NCBI GenBank assembly: GCA_946551795.1
Contig: CAMNRF010000002.1
Location: forward strand, 65,955 to 102,229
Length of the DNA stretch: 36,275 bases
From: an uncultured Oscillibacter sp.
Lineage (GTDB): Bacteria > Bacillota > Clostridia > Oscillospirales > Oscillospiraceae
Direction: 5' to 3'
The first letter of the stretch is position 1. Each line of letters begins with the position of its first letter. Below are positions 24,661-36,275 of the stretch, piece after piece. A program made the position numbers and the translations under genes. The notes below the pieces were generated by a model. The model made no database searches. It was not told the DNA's origin and was given only the letters and a program-made list of their open reading frames with translations.

Positions 24661-27363
24661 TTGGAGCACGATAAGAGACCGCAGGCCCCCCGGGGGGGCG
24701 GTCATTCGGAGCGCCGTCCCCGGAAGCGGCGGGGAAGCCCGGCCCGCACGGCGGCCGGAATCCTGGGCCGTGTTCTGTTCGGCGTGTTTACGGTGGCGCT
24801 GATCGGCGTTCTCACCGCCGGGATTTTCGCCTATATCTTTTTGCAGTATATCAACACCACCGTGGCGCCCAACCTGACGGTGTCCATGGATAACTACGAG
24901 CTGGACCTCAGCTCCTTCATCTACTATCAGGACCAGGAGACGAAGGAGTGGGTGGAGTACCAGACCATCCACGACAAGGAGAACCGTATCCTCGTGACCT
25001 ATGACCAGATCCCCGACGCCATGTGGCAGGCGGCGGTGGCCATTGAGGACCACCGGTTCTTCCAGCACCACGGCGTGGACTGGTACGGGACCCTGGGCGC
25101 GGTGAAGACTTTCCTGACGGGAGGGGACACCCGCGGCGCGTCCACCATCACCCAGCAGGTGCTGCGCAACATCACCGAGGACACGGAGGTCACCGTCAAC
25201 CGCAAGATCCGGGAGATCATCCGGGCGTTGCAGTTTGAGAAGAACACCACCAAGGAGCAGATTCTCACCCGGTACCTCAACACCATCTATCTGGGCAAGG
25301 GGTGCTACGGCGTCCAGACGGCGGCCCAGTACTACTTCGGCAAGGACGTGTGGGACCTGGATGTGGCGGAGTGCGCCAGCATCATCGCCATCACCAACAA
25401 TCCGGAGATCTACGGCCCCATGTCCACCATCACCATCACCACTTCCGACGGCAGCACCATCACGCCCCGGGAGGCCAACAAGCGGCGGCAGGGGATTATT
25501 CTGGACCGGATGGCCGGAGGAGAGGACGGGGAGGTCATCAACCCCGAAACCGGCGTGCCCTACATCACGGAGGAGGAGCGGGACCGGTACAAGGCGGAGA
25601 CATTGAACTTCACTGACGGCACCGTGAAGGCAGAGGATCTGGAGGCCGAGGCCAGCGCCAAGACGGGCCGGAGCGGCATCAACAACTGGTTCGTGGACCA
25701 GGTGATCCTGGATGTGTCGGCGGACCTGGCCGAGAAGTACGACATCAGCAAGGGCGCGGCCCAGAAGCTGATGTACCGCAGCGGCTACCGGATCTACACC
25801 ACCATGGACCCCAAGATTCAGGACATCGCCGAGGCTGTCTACGCGGACCGCAGCAACCTGGACGTCACCTCCAAGAAGGGGCAGGTCATTCAGTCGGGCA
25901 TCACCGTCATGGACCCCTACACCGGCAACGTGGTGGCCATCGTGGGCGCCATGGACCCCAAGGAGGGGAACCTGATGAGCAACTACGCCACCATGAAAAA
26001 GCAGGTGGGCTCCTCCATGAAGCCTCTGACGGCCTACGCCCCGGCCCTGGACGCGGGGACCATCACCCCGGCCTCCACCTTTGACAACTACCCCGTCCGG
26101 CTGGAGGGGGGCAGCCCCTGGCCCAAGAACTCCCCTAACCGCTACACCGGCTGGACCTCCGTGCAGGAGGGCATCCGGCGGTCCATCAACACCATCGCCG
26201 TGCAGGCGCTGGAGTCGGTGGGCACGGTGGAGGCCTACGCCTTCGCCACGGAGAACCTGGGACTGGACCTCCACCCCAACGACATGGCCCCCAGCCCCCT
26301 GGGGATGGGCGGATTGACCTACGGACTGAGCACCGTGGAGATGGCGGCGGCTTACTCCTGCTTTGTCAACAAGGGAATTTACAACAAGCCCCGCACCTAC
26401 ACCTACGTGGAGGACTCCAAGGGCAATGTGATCCTGGAAAACGAGCCGGAGTCCCATGTGGCCATGAAGGAGACCACGGCCTACCTCATGACCAAGATGC
26501 TCCACGCGGCGGCCACCACCGGCACCGGCGCCCCCGCCAGCTTCAGCGGCATGACCATCGCCGGCAAGACCGGCACCACCAACACCGCCTGCGACCGCTA
26601 CTTCGCGGGCTACTCGCCCTACTACTGCGCGGCGGTGTGGACCGGCTATCAGTACGCCGAGCGCATCTCCTACAACGGTAACCCCGCCATCACCATGTGG
26701 AAGAAGGTCATGCAGCAGATCCACGAGGATCTGCCCAACAAGTCCTTTGAGCGGCCGGAGAGCGGCCTGACCACCGTGCGGGTCTGCGCCGACAGCGGAC
26801 TTTTGTGCACGGACGCCTGCCACGCGGACATCCGGGGTGACCGGGAGGTGTCCTTTGAGATTCCCTCGGGCCTGGCCCCCACGGAGTCCTGCAATCTCCA
26901 CATCATGGCCAACTACTGCGTCGAGGGCGACTGCCTGGCCGGGGCGCTGTGCCCCGAGTCCTCCATCGTGGAGAAGGGCGTCTTGAATTACGAGCGGGAG
27001 GATTACGGCCCCAATATCACCTCGGAGGACGATCCCTATCTGCTGGTGAATATCCAGAAGGCGGCGGAGGAGGCTGGCGGCTGTCCCTTCCACGGCGGAA
27101 ACGGGATGCCCTACGATCCCAACGCGCAGGACCCCAACAACCCCTATGACCCCAATAATCCCTTTGACCCCAACTACCAGCCGCCCGCGGAGCCCGGCGA
27201 TCCCGGCACTGTGACGGACCCCGGCACCACCACGCCGGGGCAGCCCGCCGAGCCCCAGGAGCCCACGGAGCCTGCAAATCCCCCGGCCACGGACCCCGGA
27301 TCTACCGGCGATCCCAGCAACGGAAACTGGTTCGACAATCTCTGGAACACCCCCGCAGCATAA
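24661..27363 (+). CDS. Class A penicillin-binding protein (transglycosylase/transpeptidase)
   Basis: Bifunctional peptidoglycan synthase. Basic cytosolic head, one span at about residues 36-58, then the GT51 domain with catalytic E129 in AIEDHRFFQHHGVDW, GASTITQQVLRN and RKIREIIRALQFEK. The transpeptidase domain has S451-SMK, S508-IN and K636-TG. The start is TTG, with GGAGGTG seven bases upstream. The 900 residues include a long tail (from about 800) rich in Asn/Pro/Asp/Gly, with repeated NNPYDPNNPFDPN units and Pro-Glu-Pro spacers, typical of wall-spanning linkers. A Cys-rich stretch (CADSGLLCTDACHAD, CVEGDC) between the catalytic core and the tail suggests disulfides. Monocistronic with its own terminator. 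Confidence 0.95.
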   Translation: MEHDKRPQAPRGGGHSERRPRKRRGSPARTAAGILGRVLFGVFTVALIGVLTAGIFAYIFLQYINTTVAPNLTVSMDNYELDLSSFIYYQDQETKEWVEYQTIHDKENRILVTYDQIPDAMWQAAVAIEDHRFFQHHGVDWYGTLGAVKTFLTGGDTRGASTITQQVLRNITEDTEVTVNRKIREIIRALQFEKNTTKEQILTRYLNTIYLGKGCYGVQTAAQYYFGKDVWDLDVAECASIIAITNNPEIYGPMSTITITTSDGSTITPREANKRRQGIILDRMAGGEDGEVINPETGVPYITEEERDRYKAETLNFTDGTVKAEDLEAEASAKTGRSGINNWFVDQVILDVSADLAEKYDISKGAAQKLMYRSGYRIYTTMDPKIQDIAEAVYADRSNLDVTSKKGQVIQSGITVMDPYTGNVVAIVGAMDPKEGNLMSNYATMKKQVGSSMKPLTAYAPALDAGTITPASTFDNYPVRLEGGSPWPKNSPNRYTGWTSVQEGIRRSINTIAVQALESVGTVEAYAFATENLGLDLHPNDMAPSPLGMGGLTYGLSTVEMAAAYSCFVNKGIYNKPRTYTYVEDSKGNVILENEPESHVAMKETTAYLMTKMLHAAATTGTGAPASFSGMTIAGKTGTTNTACDRYFAGYSPYYCAAVWTGYQYAERISYNGNPAITMWKKVMQQIHEDLPNKSFERPESGLTTVRVCADSGLLCTDACHADIRGDREVSFEIPSGLAPTESCNLHIMANYCVEGDCLAGALCPESSIVEKGVLNYEREDYGPNITSEDDPYLLVNIQKAAEEAGGCPFHGGNGMPYDPNAQDPNNPYDPNNPFDPNYQPPAEPGDPGTVTDPGTTTPGQPAEPQEPTEPANPPATDPGSTGDPSNGNWFDNLWNTPAA

Positions 27364-27366
27364 AGG

Positions 27367-27401
27367 AAAGCCCCACGGCCACAAGGCCGTGGGGCTTTTT
27401 C
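27367..27401 (+). terminator. Terminator of the penicillin-binding protein gene
   Basis: AAAGCCCCACGGCC, ACAA loop, GGCCGTGGGGCTTTTT: a perfect stem with T-run, starting four bases after the stop. The A-run on the other side allows it to end the convergent mogA transcript as well. Confidence 0.93.
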
Positions 27402-27417
27402 TATCGGGGAGGCGGGG

Positions 27418-27921
27418 TCATATCTCCGGCGGTTCCGCCGCGCAGTCCGCCGGGCGGCCGGAGAGCATCTCCAGTCCGTGGGCCAGGGCGGGGAGGACGG
27501 CCTCCAGATTCTCCCGGGCGGCCTTGGGGGAACCCGGGAGGTTGACAATTAGGGTCCCGTGCCGGATGCCCGCCTGAGCCCGGGAGAGCATGGCCCTGGG
27601 CGTGATCCGCAGGGAGGCGTACCGCATGGCCTCCGGGATGCCGGGGGTGAGGCGGGTACAGACCGCCAGCGTGGCCTCCGGCGTCACGTCCCGGGGGGAG
27701 AAGCCGGTGCCGCCAGTGGTGACCAGCAGCTGGACGGACCCAGAGCCCGCGATCTCCCGCAGGAGCTGTTCGATTTTTGGCTGCTCGTCCGGCACAAGGC
27801 CGGTCCGGACTACCTGGTATCCGGCGGCTTTTAAGAGCTCCGCCACCACCGGACCGGCGCTGTCCGGGCGCTCACCCCGGAAACAGCGGTCGCTGACGGT
27901 CACTACGGCTGCGTTAAACAT
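27418..27921 (-). CDS. mogA: Molybdopterin adenylyltransferase-type protein (MogA/MoaB family)
   Basis: Activates molybdopterin with ATP before molybdenum insertion. The 167-residue protein has the family signatures AAVVTVSDRCFRGERPD, LLVTTGGTGFSPRDVTPEAT (the TGGTG and DVTPEA boxes) and LIVNLPGSPKAA. The ATG at 27921 has AGGAGG about ten bases upstream. It is the last gene of the modABC-mogA unit, 15 bases after modC, and ends near the convergent terminator at 27367-27401. MogA and MoaB are not separable by eye. Confidence 0.92.
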   Translation of the reverse strand: MFNAAVVTVSDRCFRGERPDSAGPVVAELLKAAGYQVVRTGLVPDEQPKIEQLLREIAGSGSVQLLVTTGGTGFSPRDVTPEATLAVCTRLTPGIPEAMRYASLRITPRAMLSRAQAGIRHGTLIVNLPGSPKAARENLEAVLPALAHGLEMLSGRPADCAAEPPEI

Positions 27922-27936
27922 GAGGGGTTTCCTCCT

Positions 27937-28980
27937 TTACAGTTCCTGCAGGAGCAGGATATTCTCCGGATCGACGGAGACGGTGAGGCTGGTCTGATCG
28001 GGGAGCGTCTCCCAATCACTCCGGTCCAGCTCCATGCGGAGGGGAGGAGCGCCGGGGGCGGCGCTCTCCGGCCGCAGGAGGACGATGACGGAGAACACAT
28101 CCCGGATGACCCGGACGACTTGGCAGGAGAGGGCGTTTTCCGCCTCCGCCGGGAGCAGGTGCCGAGCCCGGATGCCCGCCCGCCGGATTCCCTCCGGCAC
28201 AGGCCGCCGGCACTCCAGCGTGACGCCCCACTCCGGGACCTCCACGGCGGTGCCCGCCGGGAGAACGTCCACAAAGTTCTCACACCCGGAGAGGCGGGCG
28301 GCGGCCTCCGTGTCCGGGCGGCGGAACAGCTCTTCCAGGGTGCGCACCTCCTGGGAGCGGCCGCCGTCCAGCACACAGACCCGGCGGCAGTTTCGAAACG
28401 CCTCTCCCCGGTCGTGGGAGACCCACAGCACCGTGCCGGAAAAGCGGTCCAGGGTCTCCGCCAGCTCCAGCTCCAGCTGGCGTTTTAAAAAACTGTCCAG
28501 CGCGGAGAGGGGCTCGTCCAGCAGGATTGCCCGGGGCTCCGAGGCCAGGATGCGGGCCAGGGCCGTTCGCTGCTGCTGTCCCCCGGAGAGCTGGCCGGGG
28601 CGCAGCTCCGAGACGTCCTCCAGCCGGAAGCGGCGGAGCAGTTCCCCGGTCCGGGCCTGCCGCCTGGATCTGTTCCGGATGACCGCGGCGATGTTCTGCC
28701 GGACGGTCATGTTGGGAAACAGGGCGTACTGCTGGAAGAGATAGCCGGTCCGCCGCCGCTGGGGCGGCAGGTCGATTCCGGCGGCGCTGTCGTAGAGGGT
28801 CACGCCGTCCAGCGTGATCCGCCCCTCGTCGGGGGTCATGGTGCCGGCGATGCACCGCAGCGTCACGGACTTTCCGCAGCCGGAGGCCCCCAGCAGGGCC
28901 AGGGGTTCATCCCCGGCCTCAAACTGCACCGCCAGGCGGAAGTCCCCCAGCCGCTTTTGGATGTCCACAGAGAGGGCCAT
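27937..28980 (-). CDS. modC: Molybdate ABC transporter ATP-binding protein
   Basis: Cytosolic ATPase of the molybdate importer. Walker A GASGCGKS (residues 31-38), Q-loop FQQYALFPNMTV, signature LSGGQQQR, Walker B AILLDEPLSALD and H-loop VLWVSHDRGEA are all present. The C-terminal third (from about 245) fits a MOP/TOBE-type oxyanion-binding domain (RRAGIRARHLLPAE, LTVSVDPENILLLQEL). The 347-residue product starts at the ATG at 28980, which shares one base with the modB stop (TGATG). The frame upstream is modB antiframe and is excluded. Confidence 0.94.
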   Translation of the reverse strand: MALSVDIQKRLGDFRLAVQFEAGDEPLALLGASGCGKSVTLRCIAGTMTPDEGRITLDGVTLYDSAAGIDLPPQRRRTGYLFQQYALFPNMTVRQNIAAVIRNRSRRQARTGELLRRFRLEDVSELRPGQLSGGQQQRTALARILASEPRAILLDEPLSALDSFLKRQLELELAETLDRFSGTVLWVSHDRGEAFRNCRRVCVLDGGRSQEVRTLEELFRRPDTEAAARLSGCENFVDVLPAGTAVEVPEWGVTLECRRPVPEGIRRAGIRARHLLPAEAENALSCQVVRVIRDVFSVIVLLRPESAAPGAPPLRMELDRSDWETLPDQTSLTVSVDPENILLLQEL

Positions 28981-29660
28981 CAGGTGCCGCCCCCTTTCTT
29001 CCCGGTCCGCCGGCGGCTTTCCAGCAGGTTCAGCGCCAGCAGAAAGACCGCTGAAAGGGCGATGTTCACCAGCACCCATTTCATGGCCCCGGCGTCGTCT
29101 CCGGTGCGCCAGAGCTGGTAGACGGTGGTGGAGATGGTGGCGGTGTGGCCCGGGGTGTACCCGGCGATCATGGAGGTGGCGCCGTACTCCCCCAGGGCCC
29201 GGGCGAAGGCCAGCACCGTCCCCGCCAGGATGCCCTGGCGGCAGCAGGGCATCCGCACCCGCCAGAAGAGGTAGGTGTTGGACAGCCCCAGGGTCTGTCC
29301 CGCCTCCGCCAGGGTCTCGTCAAAGCTCTCGAAGGCCCCCCGGGCGGTGCGGTACATCAGGGGGAAGGCCACCACCACGGAGGCGAAGACGGCGGACCAC
29401 CAGGTCATCACCAGCCGGAGGCCGAACACGCTCTGGGCCCAGGCTCCCAGGGGCCGCCGGGGGCCCAGGAGGCACAGGAGCAGCCAGCCCACCACGGTGG
29501 GCGGCAGCACCAGGGGCAGCGTCAGGACCACATCCAGAGCGCCTTTCACCAGCCTGGGGAGCCTGGCGATATAATAGGCGGCCGCGAGGCCCAGAGAGAA
29601 CACCGCCGCGGTGGAGATGGCGGCGATCCGGATGGAGTTGCAGAGGGGATACCAGTCCAT
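28980..29660 (-). CDS. modB: Molybdate ABC transporter permease
   Basis: Integral membrane channel of the importer, 226 residues with about five or six spans (AAISTAAVFSLGLAAAYYI, VVLTLPLVLPPTVVGWLLLCLL, VVAFPLMYRTARGAFE and others). The permease EAA-type loop is recognisable (LAEAGQTLGLSNTYLFWRVRMP), followed by GTVLAFARALGEYGATSMIAG, the classic ModB signature. The start at 29660 has AGGAGG five bases upstream. It overlaps modC by one base and follows modA by 16 bases. Confidence 0.95.
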   Translation of the reverse strand: MDWYPLCNSIRIAAISTAAVFSLGLAAAYYIARLPRLVKGALDVVLTLPLVLPPTVVGWLLLCLLGPRRPLGAWAQSVFGLRLVMTWWSAVFASVVVAFPLMYRTARGAFESFDETLAEAGQTLGLSNTYLFWRVRMPCCRQGILAGTVLAFARALGEYGATSMIAGYTPGHTATISTTVYQLWRTGDDAGAMKWVLVNIALSAVFLLALNLLESRRRTGKKGGGT

Positions 29661-29676
29661 GGCGGCCTCCTGAAAA

Positions 29677-30468
29677 CTAGTCGGTGAGAGGGGTAAAGCC
29701 GACGCCCGCAAAGACGGCCCCGGCCTCCGGGGAGGACAGGAAGTCCAGGAAGGCTTCGGCCTCCTCCGGGTGCGGGCTGCCGCACAGCATGGCGGCGGGA
29801 TAGATCACCTGACCGCACATCTCCGCCGCAGCCTCGTCCACAACGGACAGCCCGGCGGAAAAGGCGTCGGTGGCGTAGATGATGCCGCAGTCCACCGTGG
29901 CCTCGGACACCTGGGTGGTGACCTCCTTGACATTGGAGCCGTAGGTCAGAACGCCGGAGGCCGCCAGGGCGGCCTCGTCCAGGCCGTAGTACGCGAAGAT
30001 CTTCTGGGTGTACTGTCCCACGGGCACGTCGCTGTTGCCCATGGCTAGGAGGACATCGCCGCTGCCCAGCCGCTCCGCCAGCTGGTCAAAGGTCTCGATG
30101 GTGCCGGGATTTCCCTCCGGCACCGCCAGCACCACCTTGTTCTCCAGCAGGTCCAGCCGGGAGTTCTCCGCCAGGGAGCCCGCCTCCTCCAGGGTGTTCA
30201 TCTGCTTGGGGGCGGCGGAGATAAAGAGGTCGCAGTCCGCCCCCTCCTGGATCTGGGTCAGCAGGGTGCCGGAGGAGTCATAGGTGGGGACCACGGTGAC
30301 GCCGGGGGCCGCATCCTTGTAAAGCCCGATGATCTGATCCATGGTCTCCGTCATGGAGGCGGCGGCAAAGACATGGAGCGCCACCCCGCTGTCGGCAGGG
30401 GGTTCTGTCCCGCCGCAGGCGGTCAGGAGCAGGCAGAGGAGCAGCGGCAGAGTGATTCTTCGTTTCAT
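29677..30468 (-). CDS. modA: Molybdate-binding lipoprotein of the ABC transporter
   Basis: Extracellular oxyanion receptor. The signal peptide ends in the lipobox LTAC (Cys at about residue 18), so the mature protein is a lipoprotein. ModA motifs: FAAASMTETM, PTYDSSGTLLTQI (the Ser-Ser-Gly oxyanion loop), CDLFISAAPKQMN, and VDCGIIYATDAFSA near the C-terminus. The 263-residue length is normal. Tungstate cannot be excluded as ligand. It is the first gene of modABC-mogA, preceded by a promoter and by the 24-bp dyad shared with moaA. Confidence 0.95.
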   Translation of the reverse strand: MKRRITLPLLLCLLLTACGGTEPPADSGVALHVFAAASMTETMDQIIGLYKDAAPGVTVVPTYDSSGTLLTQIQEGADCDLFISAAPKQMNTLEEAGSLAENSRLDLLENKVVLAVPEGNPGTIETFDQLAERLGSGDVLLAMGNSDVPVGQYTQKIFAYYGLDEAALAASGVLTYGSNVKEVTTQVSEATVDCGIIYATDAFSAGLSVVDEAAAEMCGQVIYPAAMLCGSPHPEEAEAFLDFLSSPEAGAVFAGVGFTPLTD

Positions 30469-30486
30469 GTTGGTGCCTTCTTTCCA

Positions 30487-30515
30487 ATTTTAATATGTTT
30501 TCCTGCCCTTTGCAA
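30487..30515 (-). promoter_or_regulatory. Promoter of the modA operon
   Basis: On the minus strand, TTGCAA (30515-30510), 17 bases and TAAAAT (30492-30487), about 20 bases before modA. The -35 lies inside the small palindrome CCCTTTGCAAGGG. Confidence 0.6.
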
Positions 30516-30531
30516 GGGTGGGAACACAAAC

Positions 30532-30555
30532 CGTGATACTCAATTGAGATGAACG
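30532..30555. promoter_or_regulatory. 24-bp dyad, candidate Mo/Se regulon operator (copy 1, modA)
   Basis: Core CGT-N4-CTCA-AT-TGAG-N4-ACG, with CTCAATTGAG as a perfect 10-bp palindrome. It matches the copy at 33511-33534 at 22 of 24 positions. It lies 16 bases upstream of the modA -35 element, a position suited to an activator or a distal operator. No regulator gene is in the window. Confidence 0.62.
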
Positions 30556-30570
30556 GATTCCGAAAGAGGG

Positions 30571-30589
30571 GGGCGGCAGACTGCCGCCC
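30571..30589 (-). terminator. Weak terminator of the moaA operon
   Basis: GGGCGGCAG and CTGCCGCCC form a perfect 9-bp inverted repeat 17 bases after the stop of the moeA-like gene. On the minus strand it is followed by CCCCTCTTTC, which is not a strong T-run. Confidence 0.5.
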
Positions 30590-30605
30590 GCCCTCCTGCG
30601 GGATT

Positions 30606-31625
30606 TCATTTTCCAAAGGGGCAGACGGGCCAGCGGCAGGGCTTACAGCCCAGGCACAGGCCCCCTTCGCCCATGGCGGCGATGTCCGGGCGGGTGATCT
30701 CCACCCCCGCGGCGATCCGGGGCAGCACCAGGTCAAAGACCGTGGCCCCGGCGTACATGACGCACCCCGGCAGACCCAGCACGGGGGTGCTGTCGCCGTA
30801 ATACCCCACCAGCAGCATGGCCCCGGGGAGCACCGGGGCGCCGTAGGAGACGATCCGCGCCCCGGATGCCCGGATGCCACCGGGGGTGTTGTCGTCCGGG
30901 TCCACGCTCATGCCGCCGGTGCAGAGGATCAGCTCCGCGCCGGTGTTCCGGGCCGCTCCGATGGCGTTTGCCACGTTCTCCACCCCGTCCCCGGAGTAGA
31001 CGACGTCCAGCGTCTCGATGCCAAAGGCCGCCAGTTTGTCCCGCACCACCGGGGTGAAGGTGTCCTGAATGAGGCCGGACTTCACCTCACTGCCGGTGGC
31101 CACAATCGCCGCGGTCCTTTTGACGTAGGGCAGCAGCTCCAGCAGGGGAGCGGGCCCCGCGGCCTCCTCCGCCGCCCGGAGCTTCTCCTCCGGGATCACC
31201 AGGGGGATGACCCGGGTGCCCGCCAGCTTGTCTCCCCTGCGGACAGCGGTATTTCCGTGCCGGGTGGCCACCATGATGTCCTCCGTGGAGTTGACGGCCA
31301 GCAGACGCGCCGAGTCCACCCGGAACAGGCCGTCACAGGCGGCGGTCAGCTCGATCTTGCCCTCCTTGACCTGGCTCCGCTCCATGCGCTCATTTATGCA
31401 GAGGGCGCAGAGCCGCTCCGCGGCGTCGTTTTCATGGACCATGCCGGGGACCATCTCCCAGACGTAGAGGTGCTCCTTGCCCATGGACAGCAGGACGGGG
31501 ATGTCCGCCTCCGTCACCACATGGCCCTTGCGGAACCGGGCGTCCTTATAGGTGTCCTTGACGATCTGGGTCAGATCGTGGCAGAGCACATGGCCCACGG
31601 CGTCAACAGTATTAATGAGTTTCAC
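30606..31625 (-). CDS. MoeA-like molybdopterin-binding protein with C-terminal Cys motif
   Basis: A 339-residue protein with a MoeA-like layout: an N-terminal part (NTVDAVGHVLCHDLTQI, RKGHVVTEADIPVLLSMG) and a C-terminal MogA/MoeA domain (AAIVATGSEVKSG, CTGGMSVDPDDNTPGGI, GLPGCVMYAG). It is shorter than true MoeA (about 400) and ends in C324-x2-C327-x2-C330-x4-C335 followed by PFGK, a metal or Fe-S type motif not found in E. coli MoeA. The start is GTG at 31625, with GGAGG seven bases upstream, in a GTGA overlap with the MOSC gene. A role in molybdenum insertion or hydroxylase cofactor handling is inferred from the operon. Confidence 0.88.
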   Translation of the reverse strand: MKLINTVDAVGHVLCHDLTQIVKDTYKDARFRKGHVVTEADIPVLLSMGKEHLYVWEMVPGMVHENDAAERLCALCINERMERSQVKEGKIELTAACDGLFRVDSARLLAVNSTEDIMVATRHGNTAVRRGDKLAGTRVIPLVIPEEKLRAAEEAAGPAPLLELLPYVKRTAAIVATGSEVKSGLIQDTFTPVVRDKLAAFGIETLDVVYSGDGVENVANAIGAARNTGAELILCTGGMSVDPDDNTPGGIRASGARIVSYGAPVLPGAMLLVGYYGDSTPVLGLPGCVMYAGATVFDLVLPRIAAGVEITRPDIAAMGEGGLCLGCKPCRWPVCPFGK

Positions 31626-32065
31626 TTGTCATCCTCCAGACGTTGAATTTCATCCCCGGGCCGGACCGTGCCCTCTCGGACCACCACGGCGAAGATGCCC
31701 TCGGTGGGCATGACGCATTTGCCCACCGCCTTTTTGATGGCGCAGCCGCTGTGGCACTCTTTGCCGATCTGGGTGACCTCCACCTCGGTTCCGCCGATCC
31801 GGAGTCGGGTCCCGATGGGCAGGGATTTCAGATCGATCCCCACGGTGTTGATATTCTCCGCGAAGACCCCGGCGTCCAGGGGCAGGGGGGAGGCGGCGCG
31901 CATGGTGTCCACGCTCTCCTCCGCCAGGAGGCTGATCTGCCGGTGCCAGTCCCCGGCGTGGGCGTCTCCTACGATGCCGTGGCGGAGCTTCAATCGAATC
32001 TCCGGGACGGGGTGCTTCTGCTGGCCCTTTTTCTCGCTGATATTCACAGATACGACCTTTGCCAT
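31622..32065 (-). CDS. MOSC domain protein
   Basis: A 147-residue stand-alone MOSC (MoCo sulfurase C-terminal) domain: SVNISEKKGQQKHPV, GIVGDAHAGDWHRQISLL, ENINTVGIDLKSLPIGTRLRIG, and the conserved Cys region IGKECHSGCAIKKAVG. MOSC proteins are thought to carry or transfer sulfur on a Cys. Here, among moaC, moaA, yqeB/C and selD, a function in sulfur or selenium delivery to the cofactor is plausible but inferred. The start is taken at 32065 because GGAGG lies eight bases upstream. The ATG at 32071 is too close to it. Two bases separate it from moaC. Confidence 0.88.
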   Translation of the reverse strand: MAKVVSVNISEKKGQQKHPVPEIRLKLRHGIVGDAHAGDWHRQISLLAEESVDTMRAASPLPLDAGVFAENINTVGIDLKSLPIGTRLRIGGTEVEVTQIGKECHSGCAIKKAVGKCVMPTEGIFAVVVREGTVRPGDEIQRLEDDK

Positions 32066-32067
32066 GC

Positions 32068-32547
32068 TCATTCCTCCGTCCGGTAGTCACCGCTCTTGCC
32101 GCCGGACTTCTCCAGCAGGCGGATGCTGGTGATCTCCATATCCCGCTGAACCGCCTTGCACATGTCGTAGATCGTCAGCGCCGCGGCCGATACGGCGGTG
32201 AGGGCCTCCATCTCCACGCCGGTGACGCCGGTGCAGGTGACGGCGGCGGAGATCTCCACCATGCAGGGCTCGTCCGAGAGATGGAACGTGATGTCAATGC
32301 CCGTCAGGGGCAGGGGGTGGCACATGGGGATCAGCTCCCAGGTGTGCTTGGCCGCCTGGATGCCCGCCACCTGGGCCACCGCCAGCACGTCGCCCTTTTT
32401 CAGGGTGCCGTTTTTGATGCAGGCCATGGTCTCCGGAGAGATGTGGATCTCTCCCACAGCCGCGGCGCGGCGGCAGGTGACGGATTTCTCCGTCACGTCC
32501 ACCATGCGGGCGCGGCCCTGTTCGTTAAAATGTGTCAGCTCCTGCAT
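32068..32547 (-). CDS. moaC: Cyclic pyranopterin monophosphate synthase accessory protein
   Basis: Works after MoaA in converting GTP to cyclic pyranopterin monophosphate. The 159-residue protein has the N-terminal MVDVTEKSVTCRRA and the conserved KGDVLAVAQVAGIQAAKHTWELIPMCHPL (seen as AGIQAAKHT and LIPMCHPLPL), GVTGVEMEALTAVSAAALT and YDMCKAV. The catalytic Lys/His/Asp region is intact. GGAGGC lies seven bases upstream of the ATG, inside the end of moaA, so the two genes are coupled. Confidence 0.96.
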   Translation of the reverse strand: MQELTHFNEQGRARMVDVTEKSVTCRRAAAVGEIHISPETMACIKNGTLKKGDVLAVAQVAGIQAAKHTWELIPMCHPLPLTGIDITFHLSDEPCMVEISAAVTCTGVTGVEMEALTAVSAAALTIYDMCKAVQRDMEITSIRLLEKSGGKSGDYRTEE

Positions 32548-32550
32548 GAT

Positions 32551-33495
32551 TCAGCCTCCGATCTGGTTCATGGTTCTGGGGGTGTCGCTGGGGCGGTCCG
32601 TCAGATGGTGCCGGGGGGGCTTTTGGGTGATGCCGGCCCGGATGGCGGCCTCCAGCTCCGCCCCGTGGAGGCCCCGCAGGGGGATCTCCTCCCGGCTGTG
32701 GAGACAGCCCTTCAACTTGCCGTCCGCCGTCACCCGGATGCGGCGGCACTGGCCGCAGAAGTCGCGGCTGAGGGGGGAGATCAGGCCGACGGTGCCCGCC
32801 GCCCCCGGCAGGCGGTACCGCCGGGCCACGCCCCCGGCGGGGATCTGCTGTAAAGCGGGATACCTTTTCAGAATCTCCTCTCCGGTGAGGAAGCAGGACC
32901 GCGCCCACTCCGCACAGGGCCCCATGGGCATCAGCTCGATGAATCGGACCTCCCAGGGGTGCTCCCTGGTCAGATCCAGAAAATCCCCGATCTCGTCGTC
33001 GTTGAAGCCGCCGATCAGGACGGCATCCAGCTTCAGCCCGGTGAAGCCGGCGTCCTCCGCCGCCCGGATGCCGGCGAGGACGTCCTCCAGGCGCCCCAGC
33101 CGGGTCATGGCGGCAAAGCGGTCCGGGCGGAGGCTGTCCAGGCTGATGTTCAGCCGGTCCACACCGGCCTCCCGCAGGGGAGACGCCATCTGGGGGAGGA
33201 GGCTGCCGTTGGTGGTGAGGCACAGCTCCTCCAGTTCCGGGACGGCCCGCAGTCCCCGGCAGATGTCCAGCAGACCCCGCCGCACCAGAGGCTCCCCGCC
33301 GGTGAGGCGGATCTTCTTCACGCCGCAGGCCGCCGCCGCCGCCCCGATCTCCACGCACTCCTCCACGGTGAGGATGTCCCCGTGGGGGCGCTTCTCCACG
33401 CCCTCGGGCCCCATACAGTATTGACAGCGGTAGTTGCACAGGTCGGTGACCGACAGCCGCAGGTAGTCCACAGTCCGCCCGTATTGATCCCGCAA
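32551..33495 (-). CDS. moaA: GTP 3',8-cyclase (radical SAM)
   Basis: First enzyme of molybdenum cofactor synthesis. With the TTG start at 33495 (GGAGGG five to six bases upstream, and the family N-terminus LRDQYGRTVDYLRLSVTD), the radical SAM cysteines are C20-x3-C24-x2-C27. A longer GTG start at 33522 would lie inside the 24-bp dyad and is less likely. The C-terminal Fe-S cluster is formed by FCGQCRRIRV and KLKGC, and the protein ends in the Gly-Gly that MoaA needs for activity. It is the first gene of moaA-moaC-MOSC-moeA-like, with promoter and operator upstream. Confidence 0.95.
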   Translation of the reverse strand: MRDQYGRTVDYLRLSVTDLCNYRCQYCMGPEGVEKRPHGDILTVEECVEIGAAAAACGVKKIRLTGGEPLVRRGLLDICRGLRAVPELEELCLTTNGSLLPQMASPLREAGVDRLNISLDSLRPDRFAAMTRLGRLEDVLAGIRAAEDAGFTGLKLDAVLIGGFNDDEIGDFLDLTREHPWEVRFIELMPMGPCAEWARSCFLTGEEILKRYPALQQIPAGGVARRYRLPGAAGTVGLISPLSRDFCGQCRRIRVTADGKLKGCLHSREEIPLRGLHGAELEAAIRAGITQKPPRHHLTDRPSDTPRTMNQIGG

Positions 33496-33510
33496 GGCGC
33501 TCCCTCCATT

Positions 33511-33534
33511 CGTGATACTCACTTGAGATCAACG
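33511..33534. promoter_or_regulatory. 24-bp dyad, candidate Mo/Se regulon operator (copy 2, moaA)
   Basis: Same core CGT-N4-CTCA-AG-TGAG-N4-ACG (read on the minus strand). It covers about +2 to +25 of the predicted moaA transcript, a position expected for a repressor site, and ends 15 bases before the TTG start codon. It also lies in the region shared with the divergent yqeC promoter. Confidence 0.62.
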
Positions 33535-33542
33535 CTGTTTCT

Positions 33543-33570
33543 ATCATATCAGTTTCCCGGGAAAAGTCAA
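33543..33570 (-). promoter_or_regulatory. Promoter of moaA with palindromic spacer
   Basis: On the minus strand, TTGACT (33570-33565), 16 bases and TATGAT (33548-33543). The spacer contains the perfect 12-bp palindrome TTTCCCGGGAAA (33553-33564), which could be a second protein site. Confidence 0.7.
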
Positions 33571-33591
33571 GGTGTCCGTGTGGAATTTGCC

Positions 33592-33621
33592 TTGACGGCA
33601 GGGCGGGAGAAGTGTTATTCT
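33592..33621 (+). promoter_or_regulatory. Promoter of yqeC-yqeB-selD
   Basis: TTGACG (33592-33597), 18 bases and TATTCT (33616-33621). The predicted start near 33628 leaves a short leader with GGGGAGGGG before the start codon. It is divergent from the moaA promoter, with only about 20 bases between the two -35 elements. Confidence 0.65.
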
Positions 33622-33647
33622 ATGAAAAAGACAACGGGGAGGGGTGC

Positions 33648-34331
33648 GTGTTGGGACTGGCGGAGCTGCTGGAGATTCGGCACGGCGTCACCGCCGTCAT
33701 GGGCGGCGGGGGAAAGACCACGCTGCTGCGGACGCTGGGGGAGGAGCTGGCGGCGGACGGCGGGCGCGTTCTCCTCTGCGCCACTACGAAGTTCTTTCCC
33801 TTTGCGGACATCCCCAATCTGACCGGCCCCGCGGAGGAGGCGCTGGCGGAGGCCCTGCGGACCAGCCGCCTGGTCTGCGCCGGAACGACGGTGCCCGGCA
33901 CCGGGAAACTCACCGCCCCAGCCATCCCAATGGAACGGCTGGTGGAGCTGGCGGACTATGTGCTGGTGGAGGCGGACGGCTCCGCAGGGCGGCCTGTGAA
34001 GGCCCACGCCCCCCATGAGCCGGTGATCCCGCCGGAGGCGGGTCAGACCATCTGTGTCGTCGGGGCCTCCGGCTTCGGGCGGCCCATTGCGGAGGCGGCC
34101 CACCGTCCGGCGCTGTACGCCCGCCTGGCGGGCCTGCGGTCGACGGCGATGGTGACGCCGGCGGCGGAGGCGGCGGTGCTGCGGGCCGAGGGGCTGCATG
34201 ACCAGATTTATGTAAACCAGGCGGAGACGGCGGCGGACCTTGCCGCGGCCGCCGCCCTGGCGGGACTGCTGGACTGCCCTGTGCTGGCGGGATCTCTTTG
34301 GAAGGGGGAGTATCGACTGTGCTCACGGTGA
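33648..34331 (+). CDS. yqeC: Selenium-dependent hydroxylase accessory protein YqeC
   Basis: Accessory protein of selenium-dependent molybdenum hydroxylases (YqeC family). The 227-residue protein has an N-terminal P-loop-like GVTAVMGGGGKTTLLRTLGEEL, then LLCATTKFFPF, YVLVEADGSAGRPVKAHAPHEPVIP (seen as LVEADGSAGRPVKA and HAPHEPVIP), and VVGASGFGRP. It probably binds a nucleotide. Start: GTG 33648 (five bases from GGAGG) or TTG 33651 (eight bases). An apparent GTG start at 33612 lies upstream of the -10 and is rejected. The stop overlaps yqeB by 13 bases. Confidence 0.9.
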   Translation: MLGLAELLEIRHGVTAVMGGGGKTTLLRTLGEELAADGGRVLLCATTKFFPFADIPNLTGPAEEALAEALRTSRLVCAGTTVPGTGKLTAPAIPMERLVELADYVLVEADGSAGRPVKAHAPHEPVIPPEAGQTICVVGASGFGRPIAEAAHRPALYARLAGLRSTAMVTPAAEAAVLRAEGLHDQIYVNQAETAADLAAAAALAGLLDCPVLAGSLWKGEYRLCSR

Positions 34332-35128
34332 TTCGGGGGGCCGGGGACCTGGCCTCCGGCATTGCGCTGCGCCTCAGGCGGAGCGGCATCCGGGTGGTGA
34401 TGACCGACGTGGAGCGGCCCACCGCCATCCGGCGGACGGTCTGCTTTTCGCAGGCCGTGGTCTACGGGGAGGCCGCGGTAGAGGATGTGACGGCCCGGCG
34501 GGCGGAGAACGCCGCCCAGGCGCTGGAACTGCTGCGGGAGGGCGTGATCCCGGTGCTGGCGGACCCGGAGGGACGCTGCATCCGGGACCTGCGGCCCGGG
34601 GCGGTGGTGGACGCCATCCTGGCCAAGCGGAACCTGGGGACCCGGATCACCGACGCCCCGGTGGTCATCGGCGTGGGCCCCGGCTTCACGGCGGGGGTGG
34701 ACTGCCACGCCGCGGTGGAGACCATGCGGGGCCACTATCTGGGCCGGGTGATTTACGACGGCTCTCCCATCCCCAACACCGGCATCCCGGGCCTCATCGG
34801 CGGCTTTGCCGGGGAGCGGGTGCTCCGGGCCCCGGCGGACGGGGTATTTCACCAGCTGCTGGACATCGGCGCCCAGGTGAAGATGGGGGACGTGGCCGCC
34901 ACGGTGGAGGGCCTCCCCATGGTCTGCACCCTGGACGGTGTCCTCCGGGGCATCCTGGCGGACGGCACGCCGGTCCACAGGGGGATGAAGGCCGGGGACA
35001 TCGATCCCCGGTGTGAGGTGAAGCACTGTTACTGCGCCAGCGACAAGGCGCTGGCGGTGGGCGGCGGCGTGCTGGAGGCGATTCTGGCGCTGTCCGGCGC
35101 GCTGCGGGAGGGAGAGAACCATGGCTGA
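34319..35128 (+). CDS. yqeB: Selenium-dependent molybdenum cofactor biosynthesis protein YqeB
   Basis: A 269-residue protein of the YqeB family, known as a marker of selenium-dependent molybdenum hydroxylase maturation. The N-terminus is a Rossmann-like VIRGAGDLASGIALRLRRSG, followed by RRTVCFSQAVVYGEA, GVGPGFTAGVDCHAAVET and the C-terminal GVLRGILADGTPVHRGMKAGDIDPR and HCYCASDKALAVGGGVLEAIL. The GTG start at 34319 has GGGAG eight bases upstream. It overlaps yqeC by 13 bases and selD by eight, so the three are tightly coupled. The exact reaction is not established. Confidence 0.92.
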   Translation: MLTVIRGAGDLASGIALRLRRSGIRVVMTDVERPTAIRRTVCFSQAVVYGEAAVEDVTARRAENAAQALELLREGVIPVLADPEGRCIRDLRPGAVVDAILAKRNLGTRITDAPVVIGVGPGFTAGVDCHAAVETMRGHYLGRVIYDGSPIPNTGIPGLIGGFAGERVLRAPADGVFHQLLDIGAQVKMGDVAATVEGLPMVCTLDGVLRGILADGTPVHRGMKAGDIDPRCEVKHCYCASDKALAVGGGVLEAILALSGALREGENHG

Positions 35129-36161
35129 GAATCAAGTGAAGCTGACAAAGCTGGCCAAGTGCGCCGGGTGCGGCGCGAAAGTGGGTGCCGGGGTCCTTTC
35201 CCAGCTGCTGGAGGGCATCCGGGTCCATGAGGACTCCAATCTGCTGGTGGGCTTTGACAAGAGCGACGACGCCTCGGTGTACAAAATCTCCGAGGACCTG
35301 GCCCTGGTACAGACGGTGGACTTCTTCCCGCCCATCGCCGACGATCCCTATCTCTTCGGCCAGATCGCCGCCACCAACGCCCTCTCCGACGTGTACGCCA
35401 TGGGAGGCGAGCCCAAGCTGTGCCTGAACATCTGCGCCGTCCCGGCCTCTATGCCCAAAGAGGCGGTCCATGAGATGCTCCGGGGCGGGTACGACAAGGT
35501 CTACGAGGCCGGGGCGCTGATCACCGGCGGCCACAGCATTCTGGACGACGAGCCCAAGTACGGCCTGGCGGTGACGGGGTTCGTCCACCCGGACCGGGTG
35601 CTGACCAACTCTGGGGCCAGGCCGGGGGACGCGCTCCTCTTCACCAAGCCCCTGGGCATCGGCGTGCTGACCACCGCCGCCAAGGCGGATATGGCCTCGC
35701 CGGAGTCCATAGCGTTGGCCCAGAGATTGATGACCACCCTGAACAAGTCCGCCCGGGATATTATGGTAAACTACCGCGTCCACGCCTGCACGGACGTGAC
35801 GGGCTTCGGGATGCTGGGCCACGCCTGTGAGATGGCCCAGGGCAGCGGTGTGGAGATCGAGCTTTGGACGGAGGCGGTGGACTTCATCCCCGAGGCGGCG
35901 GAGCTGGCGAAGATCGGCATCCTGCCGGAGGGGATGTACCGCAACCGCTCCTTTGCCGAGCCCAGTGTGGACGCCGGGGATACGCCGCTGTGGAAGCAGG
36001 ACCTGCTCTATGACCCCCAGACCGCCGGCGGCCTGCTGATGGCGGTGGACCCGGCGGATGCGGAGGCGCTGCTGGCGGCGCTGGAGGGCGCCGTCCCCAG
36101 CGCCCGGAGGATCGGGGAGGTCCGGGAGTACCGAGGCGGAAAGCACATCTTCCTGAGATAG
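35121..36161 (+). CDS. selD: Selenide, water dikinase
   Basis: Makes selenophosphate from selenide and ATP, the selenium donor for cofactor and protein selenation. The 346-residue protein has the active-site segment KLAKCAGCGAKVG, with catalytic C17 and K20 at the E. coli positions. C19 of E. coli is Ala here, which is common in Clostridia. Further family motifs are VQTVDFFPPIADDPYLFGQIAATNALSDVYAMGG, read as TVDFFPPIADDP and AATNALSDVYAMGG, and GGHSILDDEPKYGLAVTG and DPQTAGGLL. The position after yqeC-yqeB suggests use for a selenium-containing molybdenum cofactor, whether or not selA/selB exist elsewhere. Confidence 0.96.
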   Translation: MAENQVKLTKLAKCAGCGAKVGAGVLSQLLEGIRVHEDSNLLVGFDKSDDASVYKISEDLALVQTVDFFPPIADDPYLFGQIAATNALSDVYAMGGEPKLCLNICAVPASMPKEAVHEMLRGGYDKVYEAGALITGGHSILDDEPKYGLAVTGFVHPDRVLTNSGARPGDALLFTKPLGIGVLTTAAKADMASPESIALAQRLMTTLNKSARDIMVNYRVHACTDVTGFGMLGHACEMAQGSGVEIELWTEAVDFIPEAAELAKIGILPEGMYRNRSFAEPSVDAGDTPLWKQDLLYDPQTAGGLLMAVDPADAEALLAALEGAVPSARRIGEVREYRGGKHIFLR

Positions 36162-36275
36162 AAAAGCGGGGGGGGGGGGGGGGCCCGATTGTAAAATTAA
36201 AAAGTTTAAAGGCCACCCAGGGAGAGGGCAGGCATGTGTAAAAGGAACCAAACAAAAAAATGTATGGGGGGAGCA
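36162..36275. other. Anomalous right edge: 16-G run and unlike sequence
   Basis: Directly after selD there is a run of 16 G (36168-36183), then A-rich sequence with further homopolymers (AAAAAAA, GGGGGG) unlike the rest of the window. No gene is seen. The simplest reading is a low-quality contig end. Confidence 0.65.

Follow-up and report, generated by a model that had tools for sequence, protein, structure and literature searches.

In a stretch of 36,275 nucleotides from an uncultured Oscillibacter sp. (GenBank assembly GCA_946551795.1, contig CAMNRF010000002.1, forward-strand positions 65,955 to 102,229), which we call the window, two copies of a 24-bp dyad mark the heads of the molybdenum operons beginning with modA and moaA. 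Our analysis indicates that these dyads are very probably operators of a single molybdenum and selenium (Mo/Se) regulon, read by a short, single-domain protein of the ModE family. The regulon would comprise modABC for molybdate uptake, moaA-moaC-MOSC-moeA-like for molybdopterin synthesis, yqeC-yqeB-selD for maturation of the selenium (Se) cofactor, yedE for Se transport and a Se-dependent xanthine dehydrogenase.

A dyad family at molybdenum and selenium genes

The modA copy occupies positions 30532-30555 (letters CGTGATACTCAATTGAGATGAACG; CGTTCATCTCAATTGAGTATCACG toward the gene, on the minus strand) and the moaA copy positions 33511-33534 (letters CGTGATACTCACTTGAGATCAACG; CGTTGATCTCAAGTGAGTATCACG toward the gene, also minus strand). 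The two are identical at 22 of 24 positions, fit CGT-N4-CTCA-N2-TGAG-N4-ACG with no mismatch, all as an earlier note on this DNA had described, and are oriented alike relative to their own genes (CGTTNATCTCA...TGAGTATCACG). That note had also called chance very unlikely, which held for exact matches, as none occurred in 2000 block-shuffled windows, and failed for loose ones. At 3 mismatches, 1.5 matches are expected by chance per window, and at 2 mismatches the window's own genome (2,416,487 bases, 85.7% complete) gave only the moaA and modA copies against five matches of the reversed pattern, so that the loosely matched pattern has no power. The weight of the case therefore lies in both copies being exact, standing at two molybdenum operon heads and being conserved in relatives.

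To follow this conservation, we surveyed 61 genomes of the genus for MoaA and fetched 30 MoaA loci, the window's own included. A dyad within 3 mismatches of CGTTNATCTCANNYGAGTATCACG was found within 150 bp upstream at 22 of the 30 loci; two others (L029, L034) had a weaker dyad and six had none. In the 22 leaders the mean pairwise identity was 0.85 in the site, a value inflated by choosing leaders for having it, and 0.40 and 0.35 in the adjacent 24-bp flanks. A whole-genome search with the CGTTNATCTCANNYGAGTATCACG consensus returned 46 sites in 29 of the 61 genomes, compared with three for the reversed pattern. Since moaA leaders of this genus had supplied the consensus, its moaA matches are in part built in, which is not so for the modA matches in relatives. 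Seventeen of the 29 genomes carried two sites, in 13 cases spaced 2.5-3.2 kb apart in the same orientation. Among 45 distinct sites, 42 had moaA, modA or a moeA-like gene within 450 bp downstream; two of the other three lie near contig ends, ahead of a start resembling ModA by eye. The scan of relatives that the earlier note had suggested thus found the dyad conserved before moaA and modA and rare elsewhere. These results confirmed that the two dyads are real, exact and conserved. In several loci with no moaA dyad (L035, L036, L037, L156, L158 and L159) we observed another palindrome, GTTGTT-N3-ACAAC, upstream of the moaA -10; the L159 copy deviates from it by one base.

The fixed CTCA core proved too narrow outside the genus, since the strict pattern, searched in 150 family genomes, matched only the window's own genome and once in G142, among genes that look prophage-like by eye and probably by chance. 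A symmetric 24-mer, CGTTATTCT-N6-AGAATAACG, was seen around modE of other genera, often between divergent modE and yqeC or yqeB. A search of 200 family genomes for this form, with up to 2 mismatches allowed, returned 45 sites spread over 33 genomes (reversed, eight), with neighbours including modA, moeA-like, moaC, moaA, selD, yqeC, yqeB, yedE, yedF-like, molybdenum hydroxylase and modE genes. An Mo/Se-type gene or a PF01497 binding protein lay within 450 bp of 35 of the 45 sites, or 31 when yedF-like and PF01497 matches are set aside, as those four rest on queries taken from the matched loci themselves; one further site rests on a ModB match 308 bp away. The YedF, cysteine desulfurase and PF01497 queries and one xanthine dehydrogenase query came from matched loci and are circular there. 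Within the genus, at up to 3 mismatches, the 61 genomes gave 131 symmetric sites compared with 17 reversed. Among the matches listed, 27 of 33 annotated loci (L290-L322) had a query gene within 600 bp (yedE, Se-dependent dehydrogenase, yqeC or, at L298, a distant ModA relative); none was found within that distance at L293, L304, L305, L306, L317, L319 or L185.

The window's own genome contained four symmetric matches and no reversed one. Two precede yedE, at 348 and 42 bp (YedE: TIGR04112, 474 bits), and one lies 140 bp before the Se-dependent xanthine dehydrogenase gene (TIGR03311, 1319 bits); the match on C84, before a bioY-like gene, was taken as chance. In addition, a third, degenerate dyad, absent from the earlier note, lies at 33613-33636 on the plus strand (TGTTATTCTATGAAAAAGACAACG), at the head of the yqeC-yqeB-selD operon. 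It is 4 mismatches from CGTTATTCT-N6-AGAATAACG and stands in the same place in seven relatives with 1-3 mismatches. Because such sites mark molybdenum and selenium genes across genus and family, and yedE and the Se-dependent xanthine dehydrogenase in this genome, the dyads appear to belong to an Mo/Se regulon, and the comparative evidence is firm for a conserved operator family that would define it. The family thus reaches beyond the two operons that the earlier note took the dyad to mark, and includes the Se genes and the Se-dependent molybdenum hydroxylase before which that note had advised looking.

Some further genes adjoin these sites. Genes for periplasmic binding proteins stand directly behind symmetric dyads at L171:296-1480, L180:1541-2605 and L201:105-1157 (PF01497) and at L317:387-1472 (similar by eye), and their products are candidate molybdate, tungstate or selenium-oxyanion transporters. 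A gene that by eye resembles cysteine desulfurase or selenocysteine lyase diverges from yedE, with the dyad between them, at L209:2355-3599 and also in L169 and L170. In the window's genome (L290, contig C33 of G000), a small open reading frame (ORF) that resembles DUF3343 stands at about 1540-1860 of that locus, between the two dyads before yedE, and the first of these dyads has another half-site, CGTGATACTCA, upstream of it.

A short ModE as candidate reader

The window's own genome encodes, outside the window, a ModE-like protein of 123 amino acids (G000:C41:11271-11639), whose gene lies near molybdenum hydroxylase genes on contig C41. Its single NCBIfam match at E <=1e-10 was TIGR00637 (ModE), Pfam gave HTH_1 and one sub-threshold match only, and phmmer matched it to 2ijl (7.5e-11) and to 1b9m, E. 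coli ModE (9.9e-6). Its nearest named relatives are in Oscillibacter and Dysosmobacter. A structural model of the 92%-identical protein of Oscillibacter sp. 1-3 (L210; pLDDT 90) had ModE structures at PDB ranks 1-7 (1b9m, 1b9n, 2ijl, 1o7l), so the short ModE is modelled with the winged-helix fold of ModE domain I. The protein has no C-terminal molybdate-binding (TOBE/Mop) domains and hence is not a full-length molybdate-sensing ModE. The genome, 85.7% complete, contained no TOBE match above cut-off and two weak sub-threshold matches, so the signal must reach the short ModE by another route.

A ModE match was found in 30 of the 33 family genomes with a symmetric dyad and in 44 of the other 167 (hand tally over the 200 genomes; Fisher p 2.6e-12, kinship ignored). 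Around 80 named modE loci, the 15.6 kb just upstream of modE held 11 sites at up to 2 mismatches, compared with 10 in the other 704 kb. When half-sites were combined in a strict pattern and no more than 1 mismatch was allowed, the same loci gave three sites compared with one reversed. The enrichment upstream of modE is partly post hoc, as it appeared on relaxing to 2-3 mismatches (at 3, 21 near and 63 elsewhere), and the 80 loci overlap the surveyed genomes (for example L266/G137 and L271/G255), so that the sets are not independent. At six loci (L046, L049, L054, L059, L061 and L063) the dyad lies between divergent modE and yqeC or yqeB; in other genera, then, it does adjoin a regulator gene, a neighbourhood that the earlier note had proposed to check. 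Taken together, these data suggest that the short ModE is likely the reader of the Mo/Se dyads.

Site positions and proposed mode of action

Promoters were searched over the whole region with no preset side, and all of them are consensus predictions; first scans, made on the expected side only, agreed with this repeat. The predicted moaA promoter (33543-33570, minus strand) has -35 TTGACT at 33565-33570 and, after 16 bp, -10 TATGAT at 33543-33548, and is similar in relatives. It places the dyad at +3 to +26, between the -10 and the Shine-Dalgarno sequence, as expected of a likely repressor operator. In 18 of 21 distinct moaA leaders, with TTGACT and a TATAAT-like -10, the site starts at +3 to +5. 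The modA promoter (30487-30515, minus strand) is predicted with a weak -35, TTGCAA, at 30510-30515 and, after 17 bp, -10 TAAAAT at 30487-30492; in relatives it is mostly TTGCGG or TTGCAA, 17 bp and TATGAT-like. Here the dyad falls at -74 to -51, upstream of the weak -35, and is likely an activator-type site; it starts at -75 to -67 in 15 of 17 modA leaders, L130 and L139 being the exceptions. The different placement at the two genes that the earlier note had pointed out (about +2 to +25 at moaA, upstream of -35 at modA) is therefore conserved. At yqeC (33592-33621, plus strand; -35 TTGACG, 18 bp, extended -10 TGTTATTCT) the left arm of the dyad contains the extended -10, and the site spans -14 to +9, as in all eight leaders compared. 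Sites before the dehydrogenase lie at -75 to -52 in nine of ten leaders, again upstream of weak -35 boxes, and in G082 (L140) a site lies at 0 to +23 of a moeA-like gene. Relative to the predicted promoters, these fixed positions suggest repression of moaA and yqeC and activation of modA and the dehydrogenase, in keeping with the opposite effects at moaA and modA that the earlier note had thought possible.

Ten leaders of the Se-dependent xanthine dehydrogenase (L292, L299, L300, L302, L303, L310, L316, L318, L320 and L321) carry a second palindrome, AAAGGTYRACCTTT, just after the -10, and many of the ten have a block resembling CCGTGGGACC...GGGCACGG behind it. Among 329 loci the exact AAAGGTYRACCTTT was confined to those ten and to L206, which represents the place already given by L292. 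Palindrome and block are possibly a substrate-specific operator and leader RNA. Rfam gave no match at the block in five of the ten leaders, and across dehydrogenase and yedE leaders only tRNAs scored above cut-offs.

On these positions we base the following model. As a dimer, the short ModE would bind the 24-bp sites, in which CGTKNWWCT(CA) is the half-site. By blocking RNA polymerase it may repress moaA (+3 to +26), yqeC (-14 to +9) and perhaps also the yedE operon, and it may activate modA and the dehydrogenase from just upstream of their weak -35 boxes. The simplest reading is that it would act on DNA when molybdate or cofactor is scarce, and that the signal would come from a partner protein, from the cofactor or from its own abundance. 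Molybdate-loaded ModE of E. coli represses modA and activates moaA. The site geometry here is swapped, being of repressor type at moaA and of activator type at modA, and binding under molybdenum shortage would yield the same physiology by opposite logic. More tentatively, and with some doubt, we propose a ModE of reversed logic that consists of the DNA-binding domain only. Under shortage of molybdenum or of the Se-Mo cofactor it would sit on DNA, activate molybdate uptake from a class-I-like position and block molybdopterin synthesis, Se-cofactor maturation and Se transport; contact with a cofactor or a partner protein, and not molybdate itself, would switch it off.

Several observations weigh against the short ModE as reader, or against the scarcity model, and some of them would favour a different DNA-binding protein reading the dyads of the same Mo/Se regulon, with modE a mere neighbour, an alternative that we regard as unlikely. 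The TIGR00637 score of 63.8 bits is below the curated cut-off of 98.5. No clear ModE was found in five of the 29 genomes with a moaA/modA-type dyad (G173, G203, G187, G160 and G206; completeness 95% for G173, then 88, 82, 71 and 67%), where a profile search at E <=10 returned weak matches only; 2.8 misses would be expected from completeness among the 29. G126, G119 and G132 have a symmetric dyad and no ModE match, while 44 of the 74 ModE genomes of the family sample lack a symmetric site when up to 2 mismatches are allowed. Some of the 74 ModE matches, being weak, may represent ordinary LysR proteins. The co-occurrence is uncorrected for phylogeny, and 10 of the 45 family sites have no Mo/Se neighbour, about the number predicted by the reversed control. 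In the window's own genome, modE does not stand beside a good site, and scoring of half-sites around modE within the genus produced no convincing candidate. Ten genus members (G150, G154, G163, G181, G182, G185, G190, G195, G202 and G208) have a ModE 57-67% identical and no moaA/modA-type dyad. We considered whether they refute ModE as the reader; the annotated loci include a site before yedE, yqeC or the dehydrogenase from six of them (G150, G154, G181, G182, G195 and G202). The moeA-modA junction was fetched for six of the ten, and in five of these modA begins roughly 20-90 bp after the moeA-like gene; in G182 the gap is wider and holds a poor match to the half-site. As for the model, the function of each site is deduced from sequence and predicted promoters, and the scarcity logic fits modA and moaA and not obviously the dehydrogenase, if that is activated by the same state as modA. 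On the other side, the co-occurrence of dyad and ModE is strong, sites are enriched just upstream of modE in other genera, the protein is modelled with a ModE fold, and the dyads have their length and ends in common with E. coli sites. No other regulator gene was noticed recurring beside the sites, although no systematic search was made, and sites that outlive their ModE have a precedent in Geobacter metallireducens, which, in the passages available to us, lost ModE and kept traces of its sites (PMC2700814).

Even with the short ModE as reader, it is possible, though we do not favour it, that it represses everywhere, including from the upstream modA and dehydrogenase sites, or that it acts through promoters unrecognised here. 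Classical ModE does repress modA with molybdate, and the promoters used here are predicted, not mapped. In most leaders, however, the site before modA or the dehydrogenase stops short of a conserved, weak -35 box, and repression from such a place would be unusual, whereas at moaA and yqeC the promoters are better and the site overlaps their start region. That the dyads act as RNA, in a leader hairpin or riboswitch, is very improbable: the moaA copy is an inverted repeat and predicted to be transcribed, but at modA and the dehydrogenase the predicted transcription start comes after the copy, at yqeC the -10 is part of the copy, some conserved positions of the two arms do not match each other, and Rfam gave no match in 27000-36275 at E <=1, the Moco riboswitch included. 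As to chance or recent local duplication, the two copies do lie 3 kb apart in one region; nevertheless their flanks differ and both are conserved in the genus at specific positions. This conservation refutes such an origin, to which we give practically no credence.

Gene setting and relation to known systems

The window is the end of a 102-kb contig. The modA-modB-modC-mog-like and moaA-moaC-MOSC-moeA-like operons lie on the minus strand, and yqeC-yqeB-selD runs oppositely from the moaA head. The moaA gene (GTP 3',8-cyclase; 32551-33495) matches TIGR02666 at 334 bits, above cut-off. Its mechanical ORF start, a GTG at 33522, falls inside the dyad; the likely start is the TTG at 33495, which follows a GGAGG and agrees with the MoaA model, so that the dyad is placed in the leader. 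Downstream are moaC (32068-32547; PF01967, 196 bits), a MOSC-domain gene (31622-32071; PF03473, 54 bits) and, last in the operon, a moeA-like molybdopterin-binding gene (30606-31625; PF00994, 69 bits). modA, for the substrate-binding protein of the molybdate ABC transporter (29677-30468), matches TIGR01256 at 117 bits, above cut-off, and is followed by modB, modC and a MogA/MoaB-like gene (27418-29711; PF00528, PF00005, PF00994); Pfam found no TOBE domain in ModC. On the plus strand are yqeC (33651-34331; TIGR03172, 143 bits), yqeB for the Se-dependent molybdenum cofactor protein (34298-35128; TIGR03309, 356 bits) and selD for selenide water dikinase (35121-36161; TIGR00476, 402 bits), all above cut-off. 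The start of yqeC was set by comparison with relatives, which support 33651, the mechanical ORF start being 33612. A run of 16 G at 36168-36183, just after selD and near the contig end, is possibly a sequencing or assembly artefact.

In E. coli K-12, modA carries CGTTATATTGTCGCCTACATAACG and moaA CGCTATATACATGATTACATAGCG, which we take to be its ModE sites. They have the 24-bp length and the CG ends of our dyads with a different core, in line with the earlier note's remark that the CGT/ACG ends are ModE-like and the core is not. The E. coli consensus, as quoted in PMC545781, is ATCGNTATATA-N6-TATATANCGAT. The two systems are alike in their 24-bp dyads at modA and moaA and in the fold of ModE domain I. 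They differ in the core, which here is CTCA/TGAG or TTCT/AGAA and not TATA, so that TATATA-N6-TATATA does not describe it, in a reader without molybdate-binding domains, in modA and moaA site positions of opposite type, and in the Se genes of the regulon. Desulfovibrio offers a single-domain ModE with a predicted site CGGTCACG-N14-CGTGACCG, its sensing left open (Rodionov et al. 2004, PMC545781). In the passages of that paper available to us, this ModE is similar in keeping only the DNA-binding domain, with a distinct predicted site before mod operons; the sites tabulated there are of mod operons only, and by direct comparison that site differs from the dyads in both sequence and spacing.

A ModE-family gene has also been placed near Se genes. 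In Enterococcus faecalis, the cluster that contains selD together with yqeB/yqeC-type and molybdenum hydroxylase genes also includes EF2572 (COG2005, ModE), which is distributed more widely than SelD (Zhang et al. 2008, PMC2432076); the passages of that paper that we drew on name no operator or regulon for it. LysR_Se/HrsM, proposed from a different family and linked to Se genes in the part of Lin et al. 2015 (PMC5322559) available to us, is likewise a LysR-type winged-helix regulator; the reader proposed here, with 123 amino acids and ModE-like, is unlike a full-length LysR protein with a substrate-binding domain. Genes of Se-dependent molybdenum hydroxylases (SDMH) are treated by Haft and Self 2008 (PMC2276186) and in a 2024 C. 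difficile study (PMC11448449); the passages available to us do not name a regulator of them. In searches of the open-licence literature we recognised no description of an operator like the present dyad. The earlier note's proposal of an undescribed Mo/Se operator thus stands as to a conserved Mo/Se operator family; the dyad is more probably a variant of the ModE operator than the target of an entirely new regulator.

The labile Se cofactor of molybdenum hydroxylases, which is the third selenium trait, has to our knowledge no described regulator, and literature searches found none either. This trait now gains a candidate regulator, a defined operator and a list of putative regulon members covering Mo uptake, cofactor synthesis, Se transport and the Se-dependent xanthine dehydrogenase. 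The operator can be used to find missing parts, the PF01497 genes behind it being candidate oxyanion transporters, and the old puzzle of what a ModE without molybdate-binding domains senses becomes testable. The bacteria concerned are common in the gut, and their purine breakdown may matter to the host; if the reversed logic is true, one switch would join the molybdenum and selenium economies of these purine-degrading bacteria.

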